Positions 4,072 through 60,337 of a stretch of DNA of 64,000 nt are shown piece by piece (the first letter of the stretch is position 1; each line of letters opens with the position of its first letter). A program made the translations under genes and the position numbers. Origin of the DNA: Brevundimonas vesicularis NBRC 12165. Lineage in GTDB: Bacteria; Pseudomonadota; Alphaproteobacteria; Caulobacterales; Caulobacteraceae. The notes beneath the pieces are model-generated. The model had not been told where the DNA came from and searched no databases. It saw only the letters and a program-made list of their open reading frames with translations. The DNA lies in assembly GCF_001592205.1 (NCBI RefSeq), contig NZ_BCWM01000003.1, positions 62,001 through 126,000 of the forward strand, written 5' to 3'.

Positions 4072-4095
4072 TCGCGTCGCGATGCTGAAAGAAGA

Positions 4096-4126
4096 GGGCC
4101 GGGCGTTGCATCGCCCGGCCCTTTTT
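4096..4126 (+). terminator. Rho-independent terminator after the RND operon
   Basis: A perfect 10-bp GC stem (gggccgggcg at 4096-4105 pairing with 4112-4121) with a 6-base loop, followed by five T residues at 4122-4126. It lies 25 bases after the stop of the outer-membrane factor gene. Confidence 0.9.
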
Positions 4127-4157
4127 CGTTCGTCCACAGTTTGGCGACTGTCCATGT

Positions 4158-4172
4158 GTTCCGTATTTGTTC
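4158..4172 (+). promoter_or_regulatory. Candidate LexA (SOS) box, GTTC-N7-GTTC
   Basis: GTTC at 4158-4161 and GTTC at 4169-4172 are separated by exactly seven bases, matching the direct-repeat LexA operator of alphaproteobacteria (known from Caulobacter and Rhizobium). It sits 50 bases upstream of the start codon of the small gene at 4223, a good position for repression. A chance match is possible for eight fixed bases in 64 kb, but the location in a short promoter region favours a real site. Confidence 0.5.
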
Positions 4173-4222
4173 TCGTCATGCTCTAACCGTTTGCGGCGGT
4201 CGGCGGCGTGATGGAGGATCAG

Positions 4223-4426
4223 ATGAACGACGGAATCCTGGCTCATATGATGGCCGAACTGGATGCGGAACTGGCGCGGGCGGAGCCGTCCTTGCCCGCT
4301 CATCCCGAACATATGCGCCAGACCGAGATCATGCGCGCCCTGGCCTTGGGGTTGGGAAACTTTGAGCGGATGCGGGCGCACGACGTGCATCTGCTCGCCG
4401 CCAGCCTGTCGCCGCGATCGGCCTGA
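4223..4426 (+). CDS. Small hypothetical protein (67 aa), possibly SOS-controlled
   Basis: A small acidic-N-terminal, helix-rich protein with no family I recognise: MNDGILAHMMAELDAELARA followed by a second amphipathic helix (MRQTEIMRALALGLGNFERM). I place the start at the ATG at 4223 because a clean GGAGG lies at 4213-4217 with five bases of spacing; in-frame GTG and ATG codons at 4208 and 4211 lie upstream of or inside that ribosome site. It is a single gene between a terminator and a convergent small gene. The LexA-type box upstream suggests induction by DNA damage. Caulobacter is known to make small SOS-induced division inhibitors, but I see no similarity that would justify that name here. 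Confidence 0.65.
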   Translation: MNDGILAHMMAELDAELARAEPSLPAHPEHMRQTEIMRALALGLGNFERMRAHDVHLLAASLSPRSA

Positions 4427-4433
4427 TCCGGCG

Positions 4434-4610
4434 TCAGGGCTTGCGCTTGAACGTGTCGCCGATCTCGGCGGCGTCCGGACCGTCCGGTCCTGCGCTCTGG
4501 CGCTCGGCCTGACCGACCGCCTTGGTCGCCTTGTCGGAGGTCAGGGCGTCCGGCTTGCCGGCGGGATCGGCGCCGTTCTCTTCACGACCCTTGGTCTGTT
4601 CGCGGTCCAT
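4434..4610 (-). CDS. Small hydrophilic hypothetical protein (58 aa)
   Basis: Highly charged, low-complexity small protein beginning MDREQTKGREENGADPAGKP and ending GDTFKRKP, probably largely disordered, without membrane segment or cysteines. The ATG at 4610 is preceded on its own strand by a GGAGAG ribosome site five bases away. It converges on the 67-residue gene with only seven bases between the stops. Function unknown; the composition resembles small stress-associated hydrophilic proteins, but this is only a resemblance. Confidence 0.55.
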   Translation of the reverse strand: MDREQTKGREENGADPAGKPDALTSDKATKAVGQAERQSAGPDGPDAAEIGDTFKRKP

Positions 4611-4661
4611 GGTGCTCTCCGTTGCTTGGAGAGGTAGCGCGATCGGGAGCCGCGCGTTCCG

Positions 4662-5777
4662 TCAGCCGGCCGTATTGACCTTCGCCACCACCGACATGCC
4701 CGGCGCCAGACGCTCGGCGGCGGGCTGGTTCGGGTCGATGCGGATGCGGACCGGGATGCGCTGGGCCACCTTGGTGAAGTTGCCGGTGGCGTTGTCGGGA
4801 CGGATGACGCTGAACTCCGATCCGGCGGCGGGGGCGATGCGTTCGACATGGCCGCGCAGGGTCTGGCCGCCCAGGGCGTCGACGGTGATCTCGACCGGCT
4901 GGCCGACGCGGATGTTCTTCATCTGCGTCTCCTTCATATTGGCCGTGACCCAGACCACGTCCGGCACCAGACCCATCAGCTGGGTGCCCGCCGTCACATA
5001 CTGGCCCTGACGCACGCCGATCTCGCCCAGTCGGCCGGCGCGGGGGGCGACGATGCGGGTGTTGGCCAGGTCGATCTGAGCCAGACGCACGGCGGCCTGG
5101 GCGTTCTCGACGGCGGCGGCTAGGCTGTCGCGGCCGACGACGGCGGAGGTGACGCCGGTCTGGGCGATGCCCTCGGCGGCGCGGGCCTGGGCGACCTGGG
5201 CCTGGGCGCTGCGCAGGGCGGCTTCGGCGACGTCCACGTTAGCCTGGGCGACCCAGCCGCCGGCCTTGAGGGTGCGAGCTCGGTTGGCGTCGGCCTGGGC
5301 CCGCGTCAGCGTGGCTTCGGCTGCGGCGATGGAAGCGCGCTGCTGGGCCACCGATCCGCGCGCCGACGCCTGGGTCTGGGCCGAGTTGGACAGGGCCGCC
5401 TGGGCCGAGTGCAGGCTGGCCTCCGCCTGCTCCAGCCGCTGGCGATAGATGCGGTCGTCCACTTGGGCCAGCAACTGCCCCTGTTGGACGGTCTGGAAGT
5501 CCTGGACCGGCACCTGGACGACATAGCCGTTCACCTGCGGGCTGATGATCGTCACCTGGCCGCGCACATAGGCGTTGTCCGTGCGCTGTATCGCGCCCCG
5601 GAAGGGCGGCAACTGCCAGGCGTACAGCACCATCAGGACGCCCAGCAGGGCGACACCGGCGGCGATGACGGTCCACATGACGTTCTTCTTCGGCGCAGGC
5701 GCAGGTGCTGCAGCGGCGGGCGCTTGCGGGGCGGCGGGGGCGGATGAGGCGGGGGCGGGCGGGGCGGCGTCGGTCAT
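4662..5777 (-). CDS. HlyD/EmrA-type membrane fusion protein
   Basis: Periplasmic adaptor of an EmrAB-type multidrug exporter, bridging the inner-membrane MFS pump to an outer-membrane channel. I start at the ATG at 5777, giving 371 residues. A Pro/Ala-rich cytoplasmic leader of about 30 residues precedes one membrane helix (about residues 33-53). Next come the family hallmark TDNAYVRGQ, a biotinyl-lipoyl-like half (IISPQVNGYV), a long coiled-coil hairpin (about 105-225) and the second lipoyl half. It follows the pump gene on the same strand after 13 bases, so it is the last gene of a tetR-emrB-emrA order operon. Confidence 0.93.
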   Translation of the reverse strand: MTDAAPPAPASSAPAAPQAPAAAAPAPAPKKNVMWTVIAAGVALLGVLMVLYAWQLPPFRGAIQRTDNAYVRGQVTIISPQVNGYVVQVPVQDFQTVQQGQLLAQVDDRIYRQRLEQAEASLHSAQAALSNSAQTQASARGSVAQQRASIAAAEATLTRAQADANRARTLKAGGWVAQANVDVAEAALRSAQAQVAQARAAEGIAQTGVTSAVVGRDSLAAAVENAQAAVRLAQIDLANTRIVAPRAGRLGEIGVRQGQYVTAGTQLMGLVPDVVWVTANMKETQMKNIRVGQPVEITVDALGGQTLRGHVERIAPAAGSEFSVIRPDNATGNFTKVAQRIPVRIRIDPNQPAAERLAPGMSVVAKVNTAG

Positions 5778-5790
5778 TGTGGGTCTCGGT

Positions 5791-7491
5791 TCAGTCGGCG
5801 GCGGCGACGGCGGCGCTCTGGACCGCAGCGTCTGCATTGTTGTTGTTCTTGGCGTCGCGGCGCGCTTTCCAGCGCGGCCGCAGGTGGGTGACGGTCACCC
5901 AGGCGGAGCCCAGGGCCGCGATCACGGCGATGACCAGAAAGACGTCGTTGTAAGCCAGCACATTGGCCTGCTGCGTCACCTGTCGGCCCAGCAGGACGGC
6001 GCCTTCGGCGTTCGCCAGCGCGGGGTCCGTTATCGTCGAGGCATAGGCGCCCGACAGCTGGCGCAGCCGCAAGGCCACCTGCGGGTCCAACGCCGAAATC
6101 CCGGCCGCCAGCTGGCTGGAATGGTATTTCTCGCGGAGGATTTGAAGCGTCCCGGTCAGAGCCGAACCCGCCAGACCGCCGACGTTCTGAAGCACGCTGA
6201 ACATGACGATGAAGCTGATCAGGTTCTGCTTGCCCTGGGTCAGCACCTTGACGATGCCGATCATCAGCGCCGGGCCGATGAACATGGCCGAGGCGAAGGC
6301 GATCAGGGCCTGGCTGAAATACAGCTGCGCCGGGCGCGTCAGAACCGTCGAATGGCTGTCGATCCAGGCGCCGACCGCGATCAGCGCCAGGGCGATGGCG
6401 ATCGGCTTGTTCAGCTTCTCCATGTTCAGGGTGAAGGCGCTGACCAGGGTGCCGGCGATCATCGACAGCAGGATGACGACGAAGAGGCCGTGAAGCTGAT
6501 CCGGTCCCAGGCCGACGACGGTCAGGAAGCCCACCGCACCGGATGTCTGCTCCGACAGCACGATGCGGATCAGCAGGATCGCCCCGAACAGGCGCAGCAA
6601 ATCCGGTCCGGTCAGCCAGCGGGTGTTGATCAGCGGGTTCTTGCGATTGTGCTCGACCAGGAAGGCGGCGGTCAGCAGGATGACGGACCCGATCAAGGCC
6701 CAGCCGATCCAGGCGGCTTGCGTCCACCAGACGATCCGCCCCAGACCCAGGGCCGCACACAACAGGGCCACGCCTGGCGCAAACAGGGCGAAGGTCAAAA
6801 AGTCCAGCCGGTCGAACACGCGCAGCCGCTCGGACGGCGGCAGTTTGACCACCTGCACCGCGCCCCAGGCGACCAGGCACAGGCCCAGCTCGAACAGATA
6901 GAAGGCACGCCAGTCGCCCAGCTGGAGCAGGCCGGGCATGACGAGCCGCGAAATCGGCACGGCGAAACTGGCCAGGCCGATGCCGATGATCAGCCCTTTG
7001 AGTCTATGCGCCGCCGGAAAGGCCTGGATGATGTAGAGGAAGCCCAGGCTGGAAAGGCCCGCGCCCGCCATGCCGGCGATGGCCCGCACCAGCAGGGTCG
7101 ATTGATAGTTGTCGACGAACAGATGAGCGGCGCAGACCAGCACGAAGGCCCCCAGGAATATCTGGGTGAACAGGCGCAGGCCGTACTGCATCCGGAACTT
7201 GACCAGGATCAGGTTCATGCAGGCGTTGGTCATGACGAAGACGACCGGCAGCCATGCGGCCTCGGTGATCGTGATCCCCAGCGAGCCTTGCAGGTTCTGG
7301 ATGTTGGCGGTGACGGCGGCGTTGCCCAGCGATCCGACCATGGCGACCAGCAGGCCGGTCAGGGCGTACTGGATCCGCATCGGCCAGGGGTGATCGGGCG
7401 TGGCGGGCGAGCCGGGCATCATCGGCCGCTCGTGCGGCTTCAGCGTCTCGACATACTGTTCCCAGGGCAGGTGCCAGTTGTTGCGGGCCAT
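5791..7491 (-). CDS. DHA2-family MFS drug:proton antiporter (EmrB-like)
   Basis: Inner-membrane major facilitator of the 14-helix DHA2 drug-resistance family, 566 residues, expected to export hydrophobic drugs with the EmrA-type adaptor downstream. Many hydrophobic helices are evident. The N-terminal cytoplasmic extension (MARNNWHLPWEQYVETLKPH) is longer than in E. coli EmrB, and the first helix begins near residue 40. Its ATG overlaps the stop of the tetR gene by one base, so regulator and pump are translationally coupled. The C-terminus is rich in Asn and Ala. Confidence 0.92.
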   Translation of the reverse strand: MARNNWHLPWEQYVETLKPHERPMMPGSPATPDHPWPMRIQYALTGLLVAMVGSLGNAAVTANIQNLQGSLGITITEAAWLPVVFVMTNACMNLILVKFRMQYGLRLFTQIFLGAFVLVCAAHLFVDNYQSTLLVRAIAGMAGAGLSSLGFLYIIQAFPAAHRLKGLIIGIGLASFAVPISRLVMPGLLQLGDWRAFYLFELGLCLVAWGAVQVVKLPPSERLRVFDRLDFLTFALFAPGVALLCAALGLGRIVWWTQAAWIGWALIGSVILLTAAFLVEHNRKNPLINTRWLTGPDLLRLFGAILLIRIVLSEQTSGAVGFLTVVGLGPDQLHGLFVVILLSMIAGTLVSAFTLNMEKLNKPIAIALALIAVGAWIDSHSTVLTRPAQLYFSQALIAFASAMFIGPALMIGIVKVLTQGKQNLISFIVMFSVLQNVGGLAGSALTGTLQILREKYHSSQLAAGISALDPQVALRLRQLSGAYASTITDPALANAEGAVLLGRQVTQQANVLAYNDVFLVIAVIAALGSAWVTVTHLRPRWKARRDAKNNNNADAAVQSAAVAAAD

Positions 7492-36803: not shown

Positions 36804-36893
36804 GGACAGGTGGCGGAGTGGTCGATCGCGCACGCTTGGAAAGCGTGTGTAGGTGAAAGCCTACCGAGGGTTCGAATCCCTCTCTGTCCGCCA
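36804..36893 (+). tRNA. tRNA-Ser (anticodon GGA)
   Basis: A complete class II tRNA of 90 bases. The 7-bp acceptor (GGACAGG with TCTGTCC), the T loop GGTTCGAATCC, a long variable arm (TGTAGGTGAAAGCCTACCGA region) as in serine tRNAs, and the anticodon loop TTGGAAA with GGA at 36838-36840. The CCA end is encoded (36891-36893). It reads UCC and UCU codons. Confidence 0.97.
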
Positions 36894-48996: not shown

Positions 48997-49212
48997 GATA
49001 TCAATCTAGTTGAGTGGTAAAGAAACCGGCGCAACAATCCGAACTTCGTAAGCGCCGTTATGTCAGTATTAATTCGTAGTCTGGCATTATAAATTATCAA
49101 ACACATCCGTGTTTTATTGATAACAGCCATGCAAGAAACTGCATGGAAGAATTTCCGAACGAAAATCAGTTGTCCAGTCTCTGCACTGAAAGACAACGCC
49201 TTGGAGGCTTCC

Positions 49213-51702
49213 TTGAAATCCCTGTACCTCACGGCTGCGTTTGCGCCGCTTATCCTCGCCATGCCTGCTCATGCGCAGACGCAGCCTGCGCCGCAGCGCC
49301 AGACAGCCTGGGAGGCCAGCCGGACGCGGGCCAGTGACGACGTGATCGTGACGGGCGTGGCCAAGGCGCGCGACAGGCTGGACAGCGCGACCTCGACCAG
49401 CTCGATCAACGATGTCGAGATCGCCAAGATCGGCGCCTATTCCATCAACGACCTGTTCCGCACCATCCCCGGCATTCGCGCCGAGGCCAGCACGGGCGAG
49501 ACCAACGGCAACTATACGATCCGCGGCCTGCCGATGGTCAGCACCGGCGCGAAGTATCTGCAGTTCCAGGAAGACGGTCTGCCGGTCCTGGAGTTCGGCG
49601 ACATCCTGGCGCTGACGTCCGACTATTTCATGCGCTACGACTTCAACGTCGGCCAGATCGAGTCCATCCGCGGCGGGTCGTCCTCGACCTTCGCATCGAA
49701 CGCGCCGGGCGGCGTGATCAACCTGATCTCGCAGACGGGTGAGGTCGAAGGCGGCTCGGTCCAGGTGTCTTCGGGCCTGGATTACGACACCTATCGCGGC
49801 GACTTCAGCTATGGCGGTCACCTGAGCGACACCGTGCGCTTCCACGTCGGCGGCTTCTATCGCGAAGGTGAAGGCCCGCGCGACGCCGGCTTCACGGGCA
49901 ACAAGGGCGGCCAGATCAAGGCCAACATCACCAAGACCTTCGACGGCGGCTTCGTGCGTCTGTACGGCAAGATCCTGGATGAAACCGTCATCGCCTATGG
50001 GCCGACGCCTCTGCTGGTGTCCGGCACGAACGACGATCCCAACTACAGCGACGTTCCGAACTTCTCGATGACGCGCGACACCCTGACGTCGCGAAATACC
50101 ACGGTCTTCCCGTTGCTGGACGGCGACAACAACCTGAAGCGCGTCAATCTGCAGGACGGCAATCAGGTTCAGGTGCGCGCGCTGGGCTTCCAGACCCGCT
50201 TCAACCTGCACGGCTGGACGATTTCCGAGCACATGCGCTACGCGCAGCAATCGGGCGATCAGTCCTTCAACTACCCGCTGGCCGTTGTGCCGGCGGCCCA
50301 GGCGCCGCTGGCGTTCGGTCGTCGTCCCGGAACCCTGGCCTATGCGACGGGACCGCGCGCCGGTCAGGCGATCACTAGCCCGACGACCCTGAACGGCAAC
50401 GGCCTGCTGGCCTATTCGACCCTGGTCCACACCGATATCGACAGCCTGGACAACTTCACCAACGATCTACGCGCCAACCGCGTCTGGAAGATCGGCGGCG
50501 GCGACCTGACGACCACCGTTGGCGTCTATTCGGCACAGCAGGATCTGAAGTTCGATCGCCAATATATCCCCTTCCTTCAGGACGTGGTGGGCGGTGGAAA
50601 CTCGGCCCTGGTCGACATCTTCAATACGAACGGCACGCCCCGCACGCAGGACGGCGTCGTCAACTTCTTCGGTCCCTCGGGCGCCGGGTCCAACTCGCGC
50701 ACCGATGTGACCTACAAGGTGCTGGCGCCCTACGCCTCGCTGAACTACCGGCTAGGCAAGCTGGCGCTGGGCGGATCGATCCGCTTCGACAGCGGCGACG
50801 TCAGCGGCCGCACGATCGCCAACGGCCTGACCGACGTTCGCACCATCGACGTGGACAACGACGGCGTCATCTCTGAAGCCGAGCGCACCTTCGCCTTTGC
50901 GCCGGCGGCCAGCGCCACCCCGGTCGACTACGACTACGACTATGTGTCGTATTCGCTCAGCGCCAACTACCGCGTCTCGGACAGCTTCTCGACCTTCGCC
51001 CGTTACAGCGAGGGCGCGCGTGCCGCAGCGGACAAGATCCTGCGTTCGCCGGCCATCAGCAATGTCGACGGCGACCTGCTGCAGGCCGACGCGGCCTATG
51101 ATCCGGTGAACCAGGCCGAAATCGGCATGAAGTATCGCGCCAACGGCCTGTTCGCCAACGTCACGGGCTTCTGGGCCGAGGTCAGCGAGACCAACCAGCA
51201 GATCCGCGCGGATGCCGGCGGCGTCACCCGTCTGGTGCTGGTCCAGCGCAGCTACGAGGCCAAGGGCGCCGAGTTCGAGGCCGGCGTGCGTCACGGTCCG
51301 TTCAGCCTGACCGGCAGCGCCACCGTCACCAGCGCCGAGATCACCAAGGCCGAGGACGCGGCCCTGGTCGGCAACTCGCCGCGCCGTCAGGCCGACCTGA
51401 TCTTCCAGGTCATGCCGCAGTACGAGACGGACCTGTTCACGGTCGGCGCCAGCGTTGTCGGCACGACCGAGAGCTATACGCAGGACGTCAACCAGCTGAA
51501 GATGCCTGGCTACGCAACCGTCAACGCCTTCGTCCAAGTGCGCCCCATCGACCGCGTCGTACTGTCAGTGACCGCAAACAACCTGTTCGACGAAACCGCC
51601 CTGACGGAGGTATCGGCCGACACGCTGCCCGCCAGCGGCGTTGTGCTGGCCCAGGCCCTGCCTGGCCGCACCATCACCGCAGCCGTGCGCTTCTACTTCT
51701 GA
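49213..51702 (+). CDS. TonB-dependent receptor (second in window)
   Basis: An 829-residue outer-membrane receptor. I place the start at the TTG at 49213 because GGAGG lies at 49203-49207 with five-base spacing and the product then begins with a clean signal peptide (MKSLYLTAAFAPLILAMPAH, cleaved at AHAQ); an ATG at 49129 would put 28 extra non-signal residues in front. The plug has DDVIVTGVAKARDRL and IRGLPM, and the barrel ends with ITAAVRFYF. No neighbouring gene reveals the ligand; the short plug-barrel layout would fit a siderophore or peptide. Confidence 0.9.
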   Translation: MKSLYLTAAFAPLILAMPAHAQTQPAPQRQTAWEASRTRASDDVIVTGVAKARDRLDSATSTSSINDVEIAKIGAYSINDLFRTIPGIRAEASTGETNGNYTIRGLPMVSTGAKYLQFQEDGLPVLEFGDILALTSDYFMRYDFNVGQIESIRGGSSSTFASNAPGGVINLISQTGEVEGGSVQVSSGLDYDTYRGDFSYGGHLSDTVRFHVGGFYREGEGPRDAGFTGNKGGQIKANITKTFDGGFVRLYGKILDETVIAYGPTPLLVSGTNDDPNYSDVPNFSMTRDTLTSRNTTVFPLLDGDNNLKRVNLQDGNQVQVRALGFQTRFNLHGWTISEHMRYAQQSGDQSFNYPLAVVPAAQAPLAFGRRPGTLAYATGPRAGQAITSPTTLNGNGLLAYSTLVHTDIDSLDNFTNDLRANRVWKIGGGDLTTTVGVYSAQQDLKFDRQYIPFLQDVVGGGNSALVDIFNTNGTPRTQDGVVNFFGPSGAGSNSRTDVTYKVLAPYASLNYRLGKLALGGSIRFDSGDVSGRTIANGLTDVRTIDVDNDGVISEAERTFAFAPAASATPVDYDYDYVSYSLSANYRVSDSFSTFARYSEGARAAADKILRSPAISNVDGDLLQADAAYDPVNQAEIGMKYRANGLFANVTGFWAEVSETNQQIRADAGGVTRLVLVQRSYEAKGAEFEAGVRHGPFSLTGSATVTSAEITKAEDAALVGNSPRRQADLIFQVMPQYETDLFTVGASVVGTTESYTQDVNQLKMPGYATVNAFVQVRPIDRVVLSVTANNLFDETALTEVSADTLPASGVVLAQALPGRTITAAVRFYF

Positions 51703-51905: not shown

Positions 51906-53297
51906 TCAGGCCACGATCCCTTCGTTACGAGCTTGAAAAACAAGTCGCCCCACGAGGCCGCTTCGCGTTCCATTACGGTTGCGCAGTTCGAAGTCGCAGC
52001 CTTGAGCTTTGGCGAGTGAGGCAACGATGGCGAGGCCTAGGCCTGACCCTGGAGTGTCTGTCGTGCTGGCGCGGAAGAAGCGGTCGGCGAGGTGGGGAAG
52101 AGCGGTTTCTGAGACCCCTTCGCCATGGTCCCAAACGCTGACCGAGCCGGCGGCGCGCACATGTACGAAAACGGGCGCGGCGCCGTGGTGAAAGGCGTTG
52201 TCGATTAGGTTGAGGATCTGCTCGGTGATAAAATCCTCCGCGCCAAGGACGATGACCGGTTCGGCTGCAAGGCGCAGGCGCAGTGCGCCGTCGGGAAAGT
52301 CGCGCCGGGCGCGAACGGCCTGACATGCGCGACGCGCGGCGCGGCCGAGGTCGGCCGACGAACCAATGCGAGCCGCTTCCGCTCGCGCCGTCGACAGCAA
52401 CTGTTCAACGAGGCGCGTCATACGATTGGCGGCGTCGCGGGAGTCGTCGATCAATCGTTGTTGCTGGGGCGTCCAGGAGCGATGCGAGTCCGCAAGAAGC
52501 GCAATATTAGCGGAGACGATCGAGAGCGGTGTGCGCAACTGATGCGACGCATCCGCCGCGAATCGATGAACACCGGCGGTGGATGTCTCAACCCGAGTGA
52601 GAAGATGATTAAAGGCCGTAAGGACGGGCCAGAACTCGCGCGGAGCCAAGTCAATGTCGGCCGGTGCGAAGGCCGCTGAAATGCCTGGGCGACGAGCCAG
52701 ATCTTGGATGAGGCTCTTGAGCGAAATCAGGCCCCATTGCAGCGCTGGCCAGATCAGAATGGCCGCGAGGACCACTAGGAGAGCTGGCGGGAGTAGAAGG
52801 CTGCGATAAAGTTCGCGCAAGCTGGCGCTGCGAGAATCCAGGCTTTGAGCTACGGAAACGCGAATGGGCGCGGCATGGCCCGGGATGTCGAGCGTCTGCT
52901 GAACCATGCGAACGGGGACCCCCCTCACGGACAGGTCGGCGAAGACCGGTTCCTCCTGCTGGGCCTGAGCCAGGTTTGGCAAATCTTTGTAGCCGGTGAC
53001 CAACTGATCGCCGTCGCGGACGCTATAAAAGACAGCGTCGCGTTCAGGGCCGTCCAAAAGAGCGAGCGTCCATGGTGCGACATCAACGGTGATGCGTCCG
53101 TGTTCGACCGACGCTGTCGCTCTTATGGTTTGAAGCGCGCCAGCCAGCAGGCGGTCCGAGTTGTCTGCTACGATGCGTTGGGCCGTCCAGGCGCCGACAA
53201 CCAGCACGACGATGGCCAAGATCGCCAACGGAATGACCTGCGCGATCAACAGCCTTAAGACCAAACTATGGGACGACTTGGACCCGGCGCTGTTCAT
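51906..53297 (-). CDS. Sensor histidine kinase (TctE-like)
   Basis: A 463-residue membrane sensor kinase. Two membrane helices (about 14-37 and 165-185) flank a periplasmic sensor of about 125 residues of the 2CSK/TctE type. The phospho-acceptor is in FAADASHQLRTPLSIV. ATP-binding boxes are QILNLIDNAFHHG, VWDHGEGVSE and GSGLGLAIV. The start overlaps the response-regulator stop by four bases (ATGA). Lower-GC codon use than the window average in places. TctE-type kinases often sense small carboxylates with a periplasmic binding protein; one is encoded divergently here. Confidence 0.93.
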   Translation of the reverse strand: MNSAGSKSSHSLVLRLLIAQVIPLAILAIVVLVVGAWTAQRIVADNSDRLLAGALQTIRATASVEHGRITVDVAPWTLALLDGPERDAVFYSVRDGDQLVTGYKDLPNLAQAQQEEPVFADLSVRGVPVRMVQQTLDIPGHAAPIRVSVAQSLDSRSASLRELYRSLLLPPALLVVLAAILIWPALQWGLISLKSLIQDLARRPGISAAFAPADIDLAPREFWPVLTAFNHLLTRVETSTAGVHRFAADASHQLRTPLSIVSANIALLADSHRSWTPQQQRLIDDSRDAANRMTRLVEQLLSTARAEAARIGSSADLGRAARRACQAVRARRDFPDGALRLRLAAEPVIVLGAEDFITEQILNLIDNAFHHGAAPVFVHVRAAGSVSVWDHGEGVSETALPHLADRFFRASTTDTPGSGLGLAIVASLAKAQGCDFELRNRNGTRSGLVGRLVFQARNEGIVA

Positions 53298-53956
53298 GGA
53301 TCGAGGCGATACCCACGTCCCCTGATGTTCGTCACGGCAGGGCCATCAGGCTGAAGCTTGCGCCGAAGTCGGCCCACATGGATTTCCAAGGCGTTTATGG
53401 AGGGGGCTTCATCCTGAGGGAAGACCTCGGCCGCCAGAAGGTCGCGATCCACCACCTGCCCAGGTCGGGAAGCCAGCACGCGCAGGGCCGCCCATTCGCG
53501 GGGACGGAGAGCCAGGTTGCGATCGTTGACCGAAACGCGTCCCGTTCCCCAATCGCAGAAGAGGGTGCCGACGACGATCGCGCCTGCAGCCAGTCCTTGG
53601 CGTCGTCGCACGATGGCGCGAAGTCGCGCCGCCAACTCGACGGGCGCGAAGGGTTTGACCAGATAGTCGTCGGCTCCCAGGTCCAGCCCGGCGACGCGAT
53701 CGCCCAAGGCGTCGCGGGCCGTAAGCATCAGCACCGGCGTTGAAGACCCTCGGCGACGAAGGGCCGCAAGAACCGCAAAGCCGTCGATGTCGGGCAGGCC
53801 TATATCCAAGACGGCGGCGTCGAAACCGCCGTCGCGCTCCATCTCTAACGCCTGCTCGCCGCTGTGAGTACAGGTCGCCCGAAAACCCCTCTCGATGAGG
53901 CTGGTCTCCAACGAATGGCGAAGCGCCTTGTCATCTTCGACGACGAGTATTCTCAT
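53294..53956 (-). CDS. OmpR-family response regulator (TctD/QseB-like)
   Basis: A 220-residue DNA-binding regulator. The receiver domain carries EDDKALRHSL with the acidic pocket, the phosphorylated Asp in AVLDIGLPDIDGF, and the conserved Lys in DDYLVKPFAPVELAA. The C-terminal winged helix ends with NIRGRGYRLDP. It is the first gene of the operon with the kinase (four-base overlap) and is divergent from the binding-protein gene, which it probably controls. Confidence 0.94.
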   Translation of the reverse strand: MRILVVEDDKALRHSLETSLIERGFRATCTHSGEQALEMERDGGFDAAVLDIGLPDIDGFAVLAALRRRGSSTPVLMLTARDALGDRVAGLDLGADDYLVKPFAPVELAARLRAIVRRRQGLAAGAIVVGTLFCDWGTGRVSVNDRNLALRPREWAALRVLASRPGQVVDRDLLAAEVFPQDEAPSINALEIHVGRLRRKLQPDGPAVTNIRGRGYRLDP

Positions 53957-53970
53957 GGCGACGAGAGGGG

Positions 53971-55125
53971 ATGAAGGGTCATGTGCGACACCATAGCTCG
54001 AAAGCTCGTAGGTTGAAGCCGGGTCGCCGACATCTGCTCCAGGCGCTGGCGGGCGGCTTGGCGGCCGGCGGCGGGGGATTGATCGCAGCCTGTTCGTTGG
54101 AGCCGCAAGGCGTGGGCACGGCGGAGCGGGTCCGTTGGATGGCGCGCCGCGAAGGCGCGCTGCAAATTCTCACCAACACGAGCCTGATGGGGCCAGTCGT
54201 GGATGCGTTTCGTCTGCGTTGGCCGCAGATCGCCGTGCATCTTCTAGACGTCAATTCCACTCAGATCGCCGAGCAGGTGAGAGCATTGGCGGATGCCGGG
54301 CGGAAGGGGCCGGATCTGGTCTGGAGCTCGGCGATGGATGTTCAGGTCAAGCTCATCAACGATGGCTATGCCCAAATCTACAAGTCGCCGCATCGGACCG
54401 CCATGCCGGATGGCTCGGTCTGGCGCGACCAAGGTTACGGGCTGACAGCGGAGCCGATCGTATTCGCCTATAATCGCGTGAAGATGTCAGAGGATGTCGT
54501 GCCACGCAGCCATGCCGATTTGCTTCGTCTGCTGAAAGCGCGCCCCGACGTATTGGATGGCCGCATCACGATATATGACGCAGAGCGGAGCGGCGTCGCC
54601 TTGATGCAGTTGTCGGCGGACGTTCAAATCTATCCCGATGCCTGGCCGCTGATGGAGGCGTTGGGTGCATCGCGACCGAGACTCGACACCTCGGGCAAAC
54701 GGATGATGAGTCAGATCGCGGACGGCCGGATGGCCTTCGCTTACAACATGAACCAGTCCTATGGCGCGTCTTGGGCGGTCGGAGCGCCGCAGATCGGACT
54801 GATTACGCCTACGGATTATCATCTTTCCGTATCTCGGGTGGCCTTCATTCCGCGCAACGCGGGCCACCCAAACGCGGCGAGACTGTTTCTAGACTTCCTG
54901 TTGTCGCGCGAAGGACAAAGGGTCATAGGCGCGCTGGGCATTCGGCCGGTGCGCAACGATGTTGATACACCTTTGCGAGCAGCCGCGCCCGGCGCGCGTC
55001 CGATAAGGGTGGGGCCCGCCTTGCTGGCTAATCTGGATCAAGCGCGCCGTGCGCGCCTTCTTAGCCAGTGGGATGACGCCATGCAGGTGGCGACAAGGGC
55101 GCCGTCGGACATCTCCGCGCCTTAA
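53971..55125 (+). CDS. Tat-type lipoprotein, extracellular solute-binding (Fe3+/AfuA-like fold)
   Basis: Periplasmic binding protein of about 384 residues. A twin-arginine stretch (GRRHLLQALAG) and lipobox LIAAC suggest a Tat-exported lipoprotein. The mature part has the ABC-type iron/phosphonate binder layout: GPDLVWSSAMDVQVKLINDG is typical, then GYGLTAEPIVFAYNR. The start is uncertain: ATG 53971, GTG 53983 or TTG 54013 are in frame, and the last gives the neatest signal and leaves room for a divergent promoter. No permease or ATPase is adjacent, so it probably serves the TctE-like kinase as a ligand presenter. Confidence 0.85.
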   Translation: MKGHVRHHSSKARRLKPGRRHLLQALAGGLAAGGGGLIAACSLEPQGVGTAERVRWMARREGALQILTNTSLMGPVVDAFRLRWPQIAVHLLDVNSTQIAEQVRALADAGRKGPDLVWSSAMDVQVKLINDGYAQIYKSPHRTAMPDGSVWRDQGYGLTAEPIVFAYNRVKMSEDVVPRSHADLLRLLKARPDVLDGRITIYDAERSGVALMQLSADVQIYPDAWPLMEALGASRPRLDTSGKRMMSQIADGRMAFAYNMNQSYGASWAVGAPQIGLITPTDYHLSVSRVAFIPRNAGHPNAARLFLDFLLSREGQRVIGALGIRPVRNDVDTPLRAAAPGARPIRVGPALLANLDQARRARLLSQWDDAMQVATRAPSDISAP

Positions 55126-55269: not shown

Positions 55270-55289
55270 ATTGGGAAAATTATTCCAAT
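55270..55289. promoter_or_regulatory. Imperfect palindrome upstream of the riboswitch promoter
   Basis: ATTGGGAAAATTATTCCAAT is an imperfect inverted repeat (arms ATTGG and CCAAT exact), ending ten bases before the -35 element of the riboswitch transcript. The position suits an activator or upstream repressor site. Confidence 0.4.
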
Positions 55290-55299
55290 ACGAGGTGAT

Positions 55300-55328
55300 T
55301 TGACAGAGGTTTATGGGGCAGATCTTAC
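55300..55328 (+). promoter_or_regulatory. Promoter of the glycine riboswitch transcript
   Basis: A consensus -35 TTGACA at 55300-55305, exactly 17 bases, then TCTTAC at 55323-55328 as a weak -10. Transcription would start near 55335, just at the first base pair of the aptamer, which strongly supports the assignment. Confidence 0.65.
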
Positions 55329-55336
55329 TCCTATCT

Positions 55337-55512
55337 GCAAGGCGGGAGAGTTCGGCGCAAGCCGACGCCGAAGGCGCAACCGCCCCGGAAACGCTCAGGC
55401 AAACGGACCGCCTTGCTGATGAAACGCTGGAGAGCAGGTCGGTCCGGGGGACGCGGCCTCGCCGAAGGAGAAAGGGCGTCCGCGCCCGAAACTCTCAGGC
55501 CCGATGACAGCG
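55337..55512 (+). promoter_or_regulatory. Tandem glycine riboswitch (two aptamers)
   Basis: Two consecutive glycine aptamers. Aptamer 1 (55337-55416): closing stem GCAAGGC with GCCTTGC, core GGGAGAG, GCCGAAGGCGCAA and CGGAAACGCTCAGGCAAA, then GGACC. Aptamer 2 (55425-55512): closing stem CGCTG with CAGCG, core GAGAG, GCCGAAGGAGAAA and CGAAACTCTCAGGC. The linker is eight bases, as in the cooperative tandem class. Downstream, a stem at 55550-55571 (gacacccct with aggggcgtc, one mismatch) followed by gtttc, or an alternative pairing of gaaacg (55518-55523) with cgtttc (55571-55576), could be the expression platform. Whether glycine turns the gene on or off cannot be decided by eye. Confidence 0.92.
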
Positions 55513-55593
55513 GGGGCGAAACGGCGCCGTCAGAGCGTCGCTCGCAGCAGACACCCCTGGGGAGGGGCGTCGTTTCAAATGAGGAGTCTCGCC

Positions 55594-58305
55594 TTGTCTC
55601 GTTTTGCTCGTTCCTTGACCAGTTGCGCCAGCTTGGTCGCACTGATGGCTTGCGCCGGCACCGCCGGCGCCGCCGTCGCGCAGGAGGCTGATCAAAAGCC
55701 CACCGAAGCCGCCGCCTCTGTCGATGATATCGTCGTCACCGCCTCGCGCATCGACCGCGCCGGCTTTCAGGCCCCCACGCCGACAATTCGGCTGACCGCC
55801 GAAGATCTGTCCGTCGGCGCCCGCCCGAACATCGCGGCGGCGCTGAATGACATGCCCCAGTTCAAGGCGACCAGTTCGCCTCAGACAACCGGCACGAACA
55901 CCGGCGCGGGCAACGCCCCGGTCGATCTGCGCGGTCTCGGGATCAGCCGAACCCTGGTTCTCATCGACGGGCGTCGCGTGTCCAGCGAGAACGACCTGAA
56001 CAGCGTGCCGACGGTCCTGGTCAAGAGCATCGACGTGGTGACGGGCGGCGCCTCGGCGGCCTGGGGGTCGGGCGCGGTCGCGGGCGTGGTCAACATCGGG
56101 ATAGACCGCACCTTCTCGGGCGGCAAGCTGGGCGCTGAATACGGCATCTCGTCCTTCGACGATGCGGAGCAAAAGCGTTTCGAGGGCGCCTGGGGAACCG
56201 GGTTCGCCGGCGATCGCGGCCACTTCGTGATCGGCGGCGAATACTTGGACAATGCGGGCGTCGTGCCGAAGGTTTCGCGCCCTGCGATCGGGCGCTGGGC
56301 CCAGGTTTCGGACGCGCCGGGCAGGTTCGTCACCATGCCGAACGTCGGCTTCGCCAACGCCGCCTATGGGGGGCTGATCATGTCCGGGGTCAACGCCGGG
56401 AAGGTGTTCAATCCTGACGGCACGCTGCGTCCCTTCAACTATGGAACGGTTTATGGGACGAACACCGTTGGCGGCGAAGGACCGTCCAACGACGACCTCA
56501 GCCCGCTGGTCACGCCCCAGCAACGCTACGTCGCCTTGGCCAGCGTGACTTACGATCTCTCGGATGCGATCCGTCTGACAGCCGATGTTCGCCATTCGCG
56601 GATGTGGAACGACTACGTCTGGTTCGGGGACCACAACCGCGGCAACCTGACCATCAAAAGCGACAACGCCTTCCTGTCGACGGCGATCAAACAGCAGATG
56701 GCCGCCGCTGGTCAGACGACCTTCACAATGGGCCGCTTCAACTCCGACCTGTCTTATTCGCGCATTGATTTTGAGCGTGTGACGACCCAGGCGACCTTGG
56801 CTCTGGACGGTCGTTTCGGCGACAAGTGGCGCTGGGGCGCCTATTACAGTCATGGCGAATACGAGAACAATATCGATACGCCAGGCTTCCTGCTGGCGAC
56901 GCCCTACTCGCAGGCGGTGGATTCGGTCATCGATCCGGTCACTAACAAGGCCGTCTGCCGGGTCACGCTCACCAACGCCAACTCCGGCTGCGTGCCGATC
57001 AATCTGTTCGGTATGGGCGCACCGTCGCAGGCGGCGATCGATTATGTCACCGGCACGCCGCAACTGCGCGCCACGACCAAGCTGGACGTCGGTGGGATCA
57101 GCCTGCGCGGCGAACCTTTCTCCCTGCCTGCCGGTGATGTGTCCATCGCCGTGGGGGTTGAAGCCCGTAAGGAGCAGACCGATCAGCGCGTTGGCGATCT
57201 GGACGCCGCCAAGGCGTTCCAGACGTTCAACTTCTCGGCCATGTCGGGGGAGTTCTCGGTCAAAGAAGCCTTCGCCGAAGTCTTGATTCCTGTCGTTCGA
57301 GACGTGCCGGTCTTCAACAATCTGGAGTTCAACGCGGCCGCTCGTATTTCGGACTATGATACCACGGGGTCGATCTGGTCCTGGAAGGTCGGGGCGACCA
57401 ACGAATTCTTCAGTGGGTTCCGCGGACGGGTTACGCAGTCACGCGATATCCGCTCGCCCAACCTCAGCGAACTCTACACCACGACGACAACCGGATGGAA
57501 CACCATAAACGATCCATTCAAGAGCCAGAGCGTCTATGCCTTGAACAACGGTGGCGGGAATGCGAACCTGACGCCTGAAACGGCGGATACCTTGACGCTC
57601 GGGTTCATCTATTCGCCGCCGTCGATACCCAATCTGAACCTGTCGATCGACTATTACGACATCAAGATCGACAATGTGATCGGGACGATCTCGCCTCAGG
57701 ACTTGGTCAATCGTTGCTTCAAGGGTAATGCGGCCCTGTGCGCCTTTGTGGACCGTGACGCCAACGGCAATCTGGTTCGGACGCGCTCGACCTATGTCAA
57801 TCTGGCTGAATACCACACCGACGGGGTCGATGCGGAACTGTCTTACTCGTCGCCGGCCGATCTATGGATGCCGGGCGCCAAGGGCCGGGTGCGGCTGCGT
57901 GTGGTGGGCACCTGGGTCAACAGCCTGACGACCAACGACGGCGTTGTTGAAGTCGATTACATGAAGTCGCAGGGCTATGCCTTCGGCCTGGGCGTTCCTG
58001 ATTTTCGCCTGAACGCCAATCTCGGTTGGCAGGGCGACGTGTTCGGTGCCAGCGTGCGGGCGCGTTATATCTCGCAAGGGCTGTATAATCGCACGGTCAA
58101 TATCTCGAACAACGACATCCCGGCCTACATCTATGTGGATCTGGGGCTGACCGCCGAACTGGATCACTACGGCGCCAAGGGGGTGGAGCTGTACGCCAAC
58201 GCCACCAACCTGTTCGACAAGGCCCCGCCGAACGGATCGCTCTACTCGCCCTACTACGACGTGATCGGCCGTTACGTCACCGTTGGCGCGCGCTACCGCT
58301 TCTGA
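55594..58305 (+). CDS. TonB-dependent receptor under glycine riboswitch control
   Basis: An outer-membrane receptor of 903 residues. The start is placed at the TTG at 55594 because GAGGAG lies at 55581-55586 with seven-base spacing and the product opens with a compact signal peptide (MSRFARSLTSCASLVALMAC, cleavage near AVAQE); an ATG at 55579 overlaps that ribosome site. The plug begins DDIVVTASRIDRAGFQAPTP, contains LRGLGISRTLVLIDGRRV and GGASAAWGSGAVAGVVNI, and the barrel ends RYVTVGARYRF. This plug type is common among Caulobacterales/Sphingomonad receptors paired with peptidases. Ligand inferred to be a glycine-containing peptide. Confidence 0.93.
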   Translation: MSRFARSLTSCASLVALMACAGTAGAAVAQEADQKPTEAAASVDDIVVTASRIDRAGFQAPTPTIRLTAEDLSVGARPNIAAALNDMPQFKATSSPQTTGTNTGAGNAPVDLRGLGISRTLVLIDGRRVSSENDLNSVPTVLVKSIDVVTGGASAAWGSGAVAGVVNIGIDRTFSGGKLGAEYGISSFDDAEQKRFEGAWGTGFAGDRGHFVIGGEYLDNAGVVPKVSRPAIGRWAQVSDAPGRFVTMPNVGFANAAYGGLIMSGVNAGKVFNPDGTLRPFNYGTVYGTNTVGGEGPSNDDLSPLVTPQQRYVALASVTYDLSDAIRLTADVRHSRMWNDYVWFGDHNRGNLTIKSDNAFLSTAIKQQMAAAGQTTFTMGRFNSDLSYSRIDFERVTTQATLALDGRFGDKWRWGAYYSHGEYENNIDTPGFLLATPYSQAVDSVIDPVTNKAVCRVTLTNANSGCVPINLFGMGAPSQAAIDYVTGTPQLRATTKLDVGGISLRGEPFSLPAGDVSIAVGVEARKEQTDQRVGDLDAAKAFQTFNFSAMSGEFSVKEAFAEVLIPVVRDVPVFNNLEFNAAARISDYDTTGSIWSWKVGATNEFFSGFRGRVTQSRDIRSPNLSELYTTTTTGWNTINDPFKSQSVYALNNGGGNANLTPETADTLTLGFIYSPPSIPNLNLSIDYYDIKIDNVIGTISPQDLVNRCFKGNAALCAFVDRDANGNLVRTRSTYVNLAEYHTDGVDAELSYSSPADLWMPGAKGRVRLRVVGTWVNSLTTNDGVVEVDYMKSQGYAFGLGVPDFRLNANLGWQGDVFGASVRARYISQGLYNRTVNISNNDIPAYIYVDLGLTAELDHYGAKGVELYANATNLFDKAPPNGSLYSPYYDVIGRYVTVGARYRF

Positions 58306-58315
58306 GGTCGTGCGC

Positions 58316-58355
58316 CGGGTCGCCGGCCTCGTTCTCCCCGAGGTCCGGCGACCCG
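58316..58355 (+). terminator. Hairpin between the receptor and S9 peptidase genes
   Basis: An 11-bp stem (cgggtcgccgg at 58316-58326 with 58345-58355) enclosing a second small hairpin, followed by the pyrimidine-rich ttccttct. It lies in the 85-base gap between two genes in the same direction and may lower expression of the peptidase relative to the receptor. Confidence 0.55.
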
Positions 58356-58390
58356 TTCCTTCTCCTTCCTGTTCAGACTGGCGGTCGTCG

Positions 58391-60337
58391 ATGCCTCGTT
58401 TCCCCCTGGCGCTTGTTCTCTCACTCTCCACCGTCGCTGCGGCTCCGCTCGCCTGGGCCGAGGCGCCCAAGCCCGCCGCTGTCGTCGCCGACGGCCTGCC
58501 GGCGGTTCCGGACGCTCTGGTCGCGGCGACCCAGCCCTATCTGCAGTCGCGGCGCGCCGCCTTCCTGGGGTGGAATGCGGCGGATCGGTCCATGCTGATC
58601 AAGACGCGCTTCGGCGCGACAGACCAGTTGCACACGGTCTCGGCGCCGGGGGCCGCCCGCACCCAGATCAGCTTCGAGAGCGAGCCGATCCTGACTGGCG
58701 CGCCGTCGCCGGATGGGCGCACGCTGGTGGTGCAGAAGGACAGCGGCGGCGACGAATTCTATCAACTCTATACGCTGAAGGACGGGCGACTGACGCGCCT
58801 GACAGACGGGCGCAGCCGCAACTGGTTCGGGGCCTGGAGCCCGGACGGTCGCTTGATCGGTTATGCCTCGTCACGGCGCAACGGGGCGGACATGGATCTT
58901 TACGTCGTCGATCCGTCGAACCCCTCCAGCGAACGCCTGGTCGCCCAGGTGTCCGGCGGAGGCTGGAACATAGCCGACTTCTCCAAGGACGGACGAAAGG
59001 CGCTGGTTCTCAACCGGATGTCCGTGAACAACGCCGTCGTCTATGAGTTGGACCTGGCCAGCGGTCGAATGACGGCTTTGACGGATCCCGCTGCCCAGGT
59101 GTCCTACGTCGGTCCGCAGTATGCCGCGGATGGCACGGTATGGGCGACGTCCAACAAGCAGTCTGACTTCCTTCGCCTGGGACGTATCGGCAAGGACGGA
59201 TTTGTCCCGGTCAGCCATGAACCGCGCTGGGATGTGAGTGACTACGCCCTGGCCCCGGATGGCAGTTTCGTCGTCTATGCGATCAACGATGCCGGGGTGT
59301 CGCGCGTACGGGTACTGGATACGGCGTCGGGCGTCGTTCGCCCGGTGGACGGTCTGCCGGAAGGCGTCATCCCTTACAGCATCGGTTCGGCCATACAGGT
59401 TTCGCCGTGGGGCGCGATCGGTCTCAGTCTTTCGTCGGCTCGGATATCGGGCGACGCCTTCTCGATCGATCCCAACACCCTGGCGGTCACTCGCTGGACC
59501 GCCAGCGAGACCGGCGGACTGGACTCCGCCATCAACGTAGAGCCGCAGTTGGTCGAGGTGCAAAGCTTCGACGGCGAGACGGTTTCCGGCTTCCTCTATC
59601 GCCCTGATCCGGCGCGTTTCCCCGGAAAGCGACCGGTGATCGTCGATATCCATGGCGGCCCCGAAGGTCAGACCCGGCCCGACTTCCTCGGGCCGCAGAA
59701 CTATCTGCTCAATGAACTCGGCGTGGCCCTGTTCTTTCCCAATGTGAGGGGATCGTCAGGCTACGGCGCCCGTTTCGTCAATCTCGACAACGGGCCGTTC
59801 CAGCGTGAGAACTCCGTGCGGGACATCGGCGCCTTCCTTGATCAGTTGCAGGCCGATCCCGGATTGGATGCGTCGCGTTTCGCCGTCACCGGCGTCTCCT
59901 ACGGCGGCTATATGTGCTATGCTACAGCGGTACATTACAGTGACCGACTGAAGGGGGCGAACTGCTACGTCGCCATCTCCAACTTCGTCACCTTCCTGGA
60001 GAATACGCAGTCGTATCGCCGCGACCTGCGACGCGTCGAATACGGCGACGAGCGCGATCCGGCGCAGCGCGCCCAACTCCAAGCCATCTCGCCCCTCACC
60101 AGCGTGGACAAGATCAAAATACCCCTGCTGGTCGCGACCGGTGGCAACGACCCGCGCGTGCCGGCGTCAGAGGCCGATCAGATTGTCTCGGCCGTCCGGG
60201 CCAACGGCGGCACGGCATGGCATCTGCTGGCCCAGAACGAAGGACATGGCTTCCACAAAAAGGAGAACGAGGACTACTATTTCTGGACCAGCCTCCTGTT
60301 CTGGAAACGGACCCTTCTTGACGACGTGGCGCATTAG
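58391..60337 (+). CDS. Secreted S9-family prolyl oligopeptidase-type peptidase
   Basis: A 648-residue serine peptidase with a Sec signal peptide (PRFPLALVLSLSTVAAAPLA, cleavage near AWAEA). The N-terminal two thirds are a beta-propeller with repeated SPDGR motifs (TGAPSPDGRTL, GAWSPDGRLIG). The C-terminal alpha/beta-hydrolase domain has the nucleophile in GVSYGGYM, the Asp in GGNDPRVP and the His in NEGHGFHKKEN. The ATG at 58391 is used. It should cut peptides in the periplasm after import by the receptor encoded upstream, so the pair and the glycine riboswitch form one peptide-uptake unit. Confidence 0.93.
   Translation: MPRFPLALVLSLSTVAAAPLAWAEAPKPAAVVADGLPAVPDALVAATQPYLQSRRAAFLGWNAADRSMLIKTRFGATDQLHTVSAPGAARTQISFESEPILTGAPSPDGRTLVVQKDSGGDEFYQLYTLKDGRLTRLTDGRSRNWFGAWSPDGRLIGYASSRRNGADMDLYVVDPSNPSSERLVAQVSGGGWNIADFSKDGRKALVLNRMSVNNAVVYELDLASGRMTALTDPAAQVSYVGPQYAADGTVWATSNKQSDFLRLGRIGKDGFVPVSHEPRWDVSDYALAPDGSFVVYAINDAGVSRVRVLDTASGVVRPVDGLPEGVIPYSIGSAIQVSPWGAIGLSLSSARISGDAFSIDPNTLAVTRWTASETGGLDSAINVEPQLVEVQSFDGETVSGFLYRPDPARFPGKRPVIVDIHGGPEGQTRPDFLGPQNYLLNELGVALFFPNVRGSSGYGARFVNLDNGPFQRENSVRDIGAFLDQLQADPGLDASRFAVTGVSYGGYMCYATAVHYSDRLKGANCYVAISNFVTFLENTQSYRRDLRRVEYGDERDPAQRAQLQAISPLTSVDKIKIPLLVATGGNDPRVPASEADQIVSAVRANGGTAWHLLAQNEGHGFHKKENEDYYFWTSLLFWKRTLLDDVAH

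Follow-up and report, generated by a model that had tools for sequence, protein, structure and literature searches.

What would a sensor of intracellular glycine do in front of an outer-membrane receptor? The established roles of glycine riboswitches are the control of glycine breakdown and of amino-acid symport. The question is raised by a locus in a 64,000-nucleotide stretch of the Brevundimonas vesicularis NBRC 12165 genome (contig NZ_BCWM01000003.1, positions 62,001 to 126,000; hereafter the window, in which coordinates are given), where two glycine aptamers lie in tandem in the leader of a gene for a TonB-dependent receptor, here called TBDT1, and a gene for an S9-family serine peptidase follows. 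The reading we favour, with confidence somewhat better than even, is that the tandem glycine riboswitch controls TBDT1 and, probably, the S9 peptidase, and thereby links peptide acquisition to glycine. Most likely, the glycine regulon would here be extended to the acquisition of peptides at the outer membrane.

A covariance-model scan identified aptamer 1 as a glycine riboswitch (Rfam RF00504) at 71.2 bits (E 7.2e-13), and a search of the organism's own genome returned aptamer 2 at 58.3 bits. Both scores are far higher than the gathering score of 32, in agreement with the original prediction of two tandem glycine aptamers. The matches overlap by 4 nucleotides (nt; 55417-55420), which is apparently why the RF00504 scans of the window name only aptamer 1; when the scan was begun at 55421, aptamer 2 alone scored 50.3 bits. 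Two copies each of the GCCGAAGG and CTCAGGC cores are found in the leader (55333-55520). The same genome has an ordinary second tandem before its gcvT and gcvP genes.

By sequence, the tandem sits in the 5' leader, between a conserved promoter and the start codon. The -35 and -10-like elements (Table 1) are separated by a spacer of 17 nt; the -10-like element is weak, agreeing with TATAAT at three of six positions, and a generic sigma-70 promoter scan listed no promoter on the plus strand. Transcription is predicted to start at about 55334-55336, at the foot of stem P1, just as had been proposed for a TTGACA promoter whose start point falls on the first stem. A second promoter within the leader could drive the receptor and bypass the riboswitch, and a long A+T-rich stretch that follows aptamer 2 in the leaders of another receptor (TBDT2, described below) was noted by eye as a possible site. 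We regard such a bypass as improbable, since aptamer 2 ends only about 70-150 nt before the start codon in the 18 TBDT1 leaders measured and the conserved promoter lies upstream of aptamer 1.

The tandem is conserved together with the receptor. Within the genus, a glycine riboswitch is present in 128 of 131 genomes and TBDT1 orthologues (at least 74% identity) occur in ten, the same ten that have an additional tandem locus; five further genus genomes have relatives at 37-41% identity (E 1e-120 or better). Of 299 genomes drawn from the family Caulobacteraceae, 289 have an RF00504 match and 25 a TBDT1 relative at E 1e-200 or better. The tandem lies directly upstream of all 23 orthologues with at least 69% identity from this draw, and a motif scan found no aptamer cores upstream of the 51% relatives in genomes G264 and G310. 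Absence of the aptamers from the orthologous receptor in close relatives had been set in advance as an observation that would count against the claim; the claim withstood this check, since it is the relatives from other groups that lack them. With one genome from outside the draw (G054) added, both aptamers are present in 24 of 24 TBDT1 leaders of Caulobacteraceae at this identity, in a tandem layout with a short linker and two standard core pairs. Named TBDT1 loci with the tandem come from three genera, Brevundimonas, Caulobacter and Phenylobacterium, and from species that include B. intermedia, B. nasdae, B. bullata, B. mediterranea, B. aurantiaca, C. vibrioides, C. radicis, C. zeae, C. endophyticus and Phenylobacterium sp. 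J426; these largely overlap the loci of the family draw and were left out of the 24. An eleventh genus genome with four matches (G106) was rejected as a receptor locus, as its gcvT is present on two contigs (C134 and C89; loci L097 and L098). The two copies are about 95% and 87% identical to the gcvT of the window genome, and the assembly is possibly mixed.

Support for the paired structure is provided by an alignment of the 24 tandem TBDT1 leaders covering 42 base pairs. In this alignment 94.8% of cells are paired, compared with at most 40.7% in controls in which the partner was slid. Two-sided changes are seen in 9 of the 42 pairs, six of them in P1 and P2 of aptamer 1, and the covariation score (0.124 vs 0.072 in shuffles) was reached by none of 500 shuffles; kinship among the leaders inflates these counts. 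The main P3 helices are nearly invariant, with 15 of 16 pairs that never vary, and are thus neutral on pairing there. These results also bear on whether the tandem is simply a stray duplicate of a gcvT leader held by neutral drift. A gcvT-like origin is plausible, because aptamer 1 of TBDT1 is 75-81% identical to aptamer 1 of the gcvT leader from the same genome in all six genomes compared. Drift as the reason for its persistence is nevertheless very hard to credit, given its occurrence at 24 of 24 orthologues across three genera, the invariant cores, the compensatory changes and the tandems at four other receptors.

Downstream of the leader, Pfam confirmed what had been read from the sequence, a TonB receptor with plug and beta-barrel domains and then a secreted enzyme with a Peptidase_S9 domain (Table 1). 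The start of TBDT1 was corrected to the TTG codon given in the table, and three relatives have ATG at the aligned position. Solved receptors are matched by the plug region of TBDT1 only. The S9 peptidase has a GxSxG motif from nt 59891, an Asp at 60140 and a His at 60236 (residues 501, 584 and 616), which we take to be catalytic; its N-terminus resembles a signal peptide by eye, and the closest solved chain is 5l8s, an amino acyl peptidase.

Table 1. Features of the TBDT1 locus, in window coordinates
Feature	Position	Strand	Basis or remark
Sensor histidine kinase	51906-53297	-	Pfam 2CSK_N, HisKA, HATPase_c
OmpR-type response regulator, weakly TctD/PmrA-like	53294-53956	-	Pfam Response_reg, Trans_reg_C; NCBIfam below cut-off
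Periplasmic solute-binding protein	53971-55125	+	SBP_bac_8
-35 element TTGACA	55300-55305	+	TTTGACA in 10/10 genus leaders
-10-like element TCTTAC	55323-55328	+	ATYTTACT at matching place in 10/10 genus leaders
Glycine aptamer 1	55333-55420	+	RF00504
Glycine aptamer 2	55417-55520	+	RF00504
Linker with predicted hairpins and Shine-Dalgarno GAGGAG (55581-55586)	55521-55593	+	Presumed expression platform; alignment, folds
TonB-dependent receptor TBDT1, TTG start	55594-58305	+	Plug PF07715 and TonB_dep_Rec_b-barrel PF00593 above cut-off
Intergenic hairpin, strong, weak T-rich tail	58317-58354	+	By eye from sequence
S9 serine peptidase	58391-60337	+	Peptidase_S9 PF00326, 101.5 bits

Tandems are also found at receptors other than TBDT1, a recurrence that, like the linked sensor genes, the original reading did not include. 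We read 53 loci from 37 genomes, namely those with three or more matches in the family draw plus G106, and presume the loci left unread in these genomes to be gcvT. The 53 comprise 16 gcvT, 2 sdaA (one with glyA), 14 TBDT1, 19 TBDT2 and 2 TBDT3 loci. According to Pfam, the next gene encodes an M19 dipeptidase in 11 of the 19 TBDT2 loci and a member of the penicillin-amidase family (S45) in both TBDT3 loci. TBDT4 (L213/L222), found in a wider draw from the class, has a tandem with a tricorn protease gene next. TBDT5 has its tandem in one of the gcvT loci, L094 (G234, 1651-6604), where the order is tandem, TBDT5, tandem, gcvT, such that this receptor directly adjoins a glycine-cleavage gene. The five receptors are mutually 22-32% identical, in local alignments only, and three of the four others adjoin an amide-bond hydrolase of their own (M19, S45 or tricorn). 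At a gcvT locus in G191 we also noted a stray third aptamer (39.5 bits).

TBDT2 is present in 59 of the 299 family genomes. Of the 26 with at least 75% identity, 21 have the switch (the 19 above plus G211 and G321), four lack it upstream by motif scan, and one is cut by a contig end (L195). From the 33 genomes with TBDT2 at 74% identity or less, two loci were read (L197 and L198), and motif scans found no switch in either; nor did a motif scan find one at the second TBDT2 copy in G163 (L199, 61%).

Aptamer 1 of TBDT2 and TBDT3 differs from that of the other receptors. It reads GCUGAAGG...CUCAAGC where the standard form has GCCGAAGG...CUCAGGC; the C-G to U-A exchange, which lies in P3, is compensated. 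This variant is present in 21 of 21 TBDT2 and both TBDT3 leaders and in none of 24 TBDT1, 16 gcvT and 2 sdaA loci; TBDT1, TBDT4 and TBDT5 carry the standard aptamer 1. Aptamer 2 of TBDT2 and TBDT3 is standard (L099 alone, 49.6 bits). That these leaders hold a single aptamer ('singlets') was considered and rejected, as the sequence and further scans show two. The variant might have a shifted ligand or affinity, and the fact that it is common to TBDT2 and TBDT3 suggests that their switches probably drew on one source.

In the class draw, 243 of 387 genomes have a match, and 16 besides that of the window have three or more. Twenty loci were read from nine of these 16, the remaining seven being of the same genera: nine are gcvT, four sdaA, four D-amino-acid-dehydrogenase-like, one glutamine-synthetase-like, one malate-synthase-like and one a receptor (TBDT4), where the dehydrogenase-, glutamine-synthetase- and malate-synthase-like labels were given by eye. 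As genomes were picked by the number of matches, loci whose sole riboswitch precedes a receptor would be missed in this count. The D-amino-acid-dehydrogenase-like targets (L208, L209, L216 and L221) come from four alphaproteobacterial genomes, with one or two aptamers listed. In L202 (G419) a tandem precedes genes that by eye are glutamine-synthetase-like and aldehyde-dehydrogenase-like.

When did the receptor acquire its switch? We compared 59 named receptor loci, 19 from Caulobacteraceae and 40 others from Sphingomonas, Novosphingobium, Stenotrophomonas, Luteimonas, Pseudoxanthomonas, Rudaea and other genera, with one unplaced alphaproteobacterial metagenome-assembled genome. In each of the 19 Caulobacteraceae loci, two copies of both cores lie upstream of the receptor. 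The two cores occur together in none of the 40 outside loci when up to 900 bp of upstream sequence is scanned for the motifs, with no covariance scan per locus, and one motif alone is found in nine; eight of the 40 have 38-50% identity and are possibly not orthologous. A glycine riboswitch is present elsewhere in 31 of 34 genomes of these outside relatives. In 22 of the 40 switchless loci an S9 gene follows the receptor, indicating that the receptor-S9 pair is older than the switch. The pairs in Sphingomonas, Novosphingobium, Stenotrophomonas, Luteimonas and others resemble the one described here in both proteins (receptor 59-67% and S9 63-74% identical, with one piece at 83%), but aptamer cores and genes for histidine kinase, response regulator and solute-binding protein were not found within the fetched flanks. 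Judging from these loci, the receptor and peptidase were already paired when Caulobacteraceae gained the switch, which was then kept. In every one of the 19 Caulobacteraceae loci TBDT1 has the kinase, regulator and binding-protein genes beside it, in rearranged order in the two from Phenylobacterium; within the fetched flanks of the 40 others these genes were not found. Since both follow this distribution, the riboswitch and the two-component system were seemingly acquired by the pair within one lineage. Separately, M19 dipeptidase genes were seen near TBDT1, without a riboswitch, in four Luteimonas loci (L133, L142, L154 and L161); at 35-38% identity to the TBDT2 partner, they link two of the partner enzyme types.

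How might glycine act on the receptor, and in which direction? Hairpins are predicted by folding after aptamer 2, and a terminator scan of the plus strand found no intrinsic terminator with a U-tract there, which makes translational or Rho-type control most likely. As to direction, we lean, by analogy, towards activation by glycine (ON) over repression, because both the conservation of aptamer 1 and its likeness to the gcvT leader follow the gcv pattern. In the TBDT1 leaders aptamer 1 is more conserved than aptamer 2 (0.842 vs 0.788, in 248 of 276 pairs), and the corresponding values for 11 gcvT leaders of the family are 0.842 vs 0.730. Crum et al. 2019 (PMC6944388) report that conservation favours aptamer 1 before gcv genes and aptamer 2 before transporter genes, and that genomic context predicts ON or OFF. 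The opposite arrangement, in which high cytoplasmic glycine represses the receptor and peptidase and halts import, as at sodium:amino-acid symporters, has a smaller but still considerable chance of being correct. The target is an uptake function, uptake genes are described in PMC6944388 as downregulated by glycine, and repression is compatible with the folding test given below; set against this, both the better conservation of aptamer 1 and its closeness to the gcvT leader of its own genome belong with the gcv (ON) type.

The cargo of TBDT1 would be peptides or peptide-like amides, because the S9, M19, S45 and tricorn-type S41 partner enzymes come from families that cut peptide or amide bonds and M19 genes lie near TBDT1 in the four Luteimonas loci; the glycine-rich, collagen-like cargo first suggested gains no particular support from these data. 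In the mechanism that we propose, TBDT1 would carry these compounds into the periplasm, where the S9 enzyme would cleave the imported peptides; some of the products, glycine among them, would reach the cytoplasm. The leader RNA, presumed to bind glycine, would sense it there and set translation of the receptor, and a periplasmic binding protein and the two-component system would probably set transcription at the same promoter. Activation by glycine, as at gcvT, would place peptide acquisition within the glycine-catabolic programme.

Several observations weigh against this account, beginning with the cargo. The closest solved relative of the binding protein is 3c9h (an unspecified ABC binding protein), with 7f6s (labelled iron-binding); after 3c9h, the solved relatives are mostly labelled iron-binding, and a metal ligand fits better than a peptide. 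This gives some weight to a metal-related alternative, in which glycine is a general nitrogen or one-carbon signal and the hydrolases process some other cargo, such as a siderophore, a metal complex or an antibiotic-like peptide. NCBIfam matches of TBDT1 to hemin and siderophore receptors and of the S9 enzyme to a lasso-peptide isopeptidase, all far below cut-off, point the same way; the isopeptidase assignment itself was rejected (NF033523, 37.1 bits vs a cut-off of 400). We judge a different cargo to be unlikely, as the four different partner hydrolases (S9, M19, S45 and tricorn-type S41) are of families that act on peptide or amide bonds.

The 40 outside relatives without the switch imply that the receptor-peptidase pair works without it. 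In addition, the S9 gene begins 85 nt downstream of TBDT1, beyond the strong intergenic hairpin, such that expression of the peptidase may differ from that of the receptor. The hairpin is a possible attenuator or mRNA stabiliser, and hairpins are also predicted in most of the TBDT1-S9 gaps folded from relatives. The original prediction that the switch tunes both genes is thus supported as regards a genuine tandem between promoter and receptor gene, with the tandem kept at the receptor in 24 of 24 loci, and is less secure for co-transcription of the S9 gene. Aptamer cores were also not found by motif scans upstream of TBDT2 in L190, L191, L192 and L196, at 75-88% identity, which reflects either losses of the riboswitch or a late gain in the others. 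Furthermore, five independent recruitments had to be rejected, as TBDT2 and TBDT3 have the variant aptamer 1 in common; the variant strengthens the case for a regulon, and the non-independence of these two receptors weakens the argument from recurrence by about the same amount.

Folding provides little help for the leader. The fold of the whole leader is ordinary (z -1.45), with the aptamers not visible in it. In models of 18 TBDT1 leaders, accessibility of the ribosome site was 0.46 with P1b forced and 0.48 with P1b free (p 0.28) and was higher with P1b free in 11 of the 18; the two states do not differ, and the test speaks for neither direction nor for a particular platform. Finally, aptamer 2 is the stronger one in a Stenotrophomonas gcvP leader (L187, context by eye; 64.5 vs 47.1 bits), so the rule that reads direction from aptamer conservation is not clean.

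A more far-reaching version of the account is doubtful, and we offer it tentatively. Cytoplasmic glycine would serve as a proxy for peptide availability, and receptors with their own amide-bond hydrolases would have been put under glycine-activated tandems more than once, forming a peptide-scavenging regulon in Caulobacteraceae and in one genome of another alphaproteobacterial family. TBDT1 would then answer to two signals, one outside through the binding protein and kinase and one inside through the riboswitch, and the TBDT2/TBDT3 branch would have an aptamer 1 of its own.

The genes upstream of the leader are those of the two-component system and the binding protein. The latter is probably a sensor partner of the kinase; no ABC permease was found among six neighbouring genes scanned with Pfam. 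About 13 nt 5' of the -35 element lies an inverted-repeat box, GGAAAATTATTCC (55274-55286, plus strand), a candidate operator, and similar boxes, for example GCAATAAAATTGC, were seen by eye at the same position in several TBDT1 leaders. The box is possibly a site for the linked response regulator. Beyond the kinase lies another TonB-dependent receptor (49117-51702), of siderophore type by a below-cut-off NCBIfam match, which may be a further target of this two-component system. Elsewhere in the window, an Rfam scan identified a tRNA gene (36804-36890, plus strand).

How does the locus compare with known systems? BtuB is a TonB-dependent receptor with a cobalamin riboswitch. A glycine riboswitch is said, in work by Khani from 2018, to stand before sodium:amino-acid symporters. 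The TBDT1 tandem is most like the gcvT tandem, including the copy in this genome, in aptamer family, tandem layout, P1b (CGCUG/CAGCG) and the better conserved aptamer 1, but the gcvT tandem controls glycine cleavage, and here an outer-membrane receptor and a secreted peptidase follow. With the symporter riboswitch (PMC6944388) it has glycine sensing over an uptake gene in common; there the gene encodes an amino-acid carrier, whereas here it encodes a TonB-dependent receptor with a hydrolase, and conservation is gcv-like. A table in PMC5756330 lists a cobalamin riboswitch before a TonB-dependent receptor, likewise a riboswitch in a receptor leader; in contrast to that case, the sensor here is for an amino acid, one that breakdown of the presumed cargo would yield. 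Glycine riboswitches have also spread to other non-gcv genes, among them sdaA and the malate synthase gene glcB (PMC5069720), although the enzymes that those genes encode belong to central amino-acid or glyoxylate metabolism.

Searches of the open-licence literature, covering listings and text passages, found no link between a glycine riboswitch and a TonB-dependent receptor, which is in keeping with the earlier suggestion that the combination is undescribed. Such a link is likewise missing from the parts covered of PMC2258182, PMC5756330, PMC7160235, PMC5069720 and PMC6944388. The comparative survey PMC3766115, which includes four Caulobacterales genomes, assigns the regulated genes to glycine metabolism, glycine transporters and serine metabolism; the term 'TonB' is absent from its main text, and its supplements could already hold such a case. 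Overall, the riboswitch belongs to a known class; the novelty lies in the regulatory context, in the spread of this context over several receptors and in the receptor-specific variant of the aptamer.

To our knowledge, the cargo of TonB-dependent receptors is mostly unknown. If the account given here is true, an intracellular metabolite sensor would be linked directly to intake at the outer membrane, and five distantly related receptors, four of them beside different peptide- or amide-cutting enzymes, would offer clues to the substrates of this receptor class. These leaders occur in culturable Caulobacter and Brevundimonas, so that the response to glycine and its direction are directly testable. 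Intracellular glycine probably helps to control uptake in Brevundimonas and its relatives.

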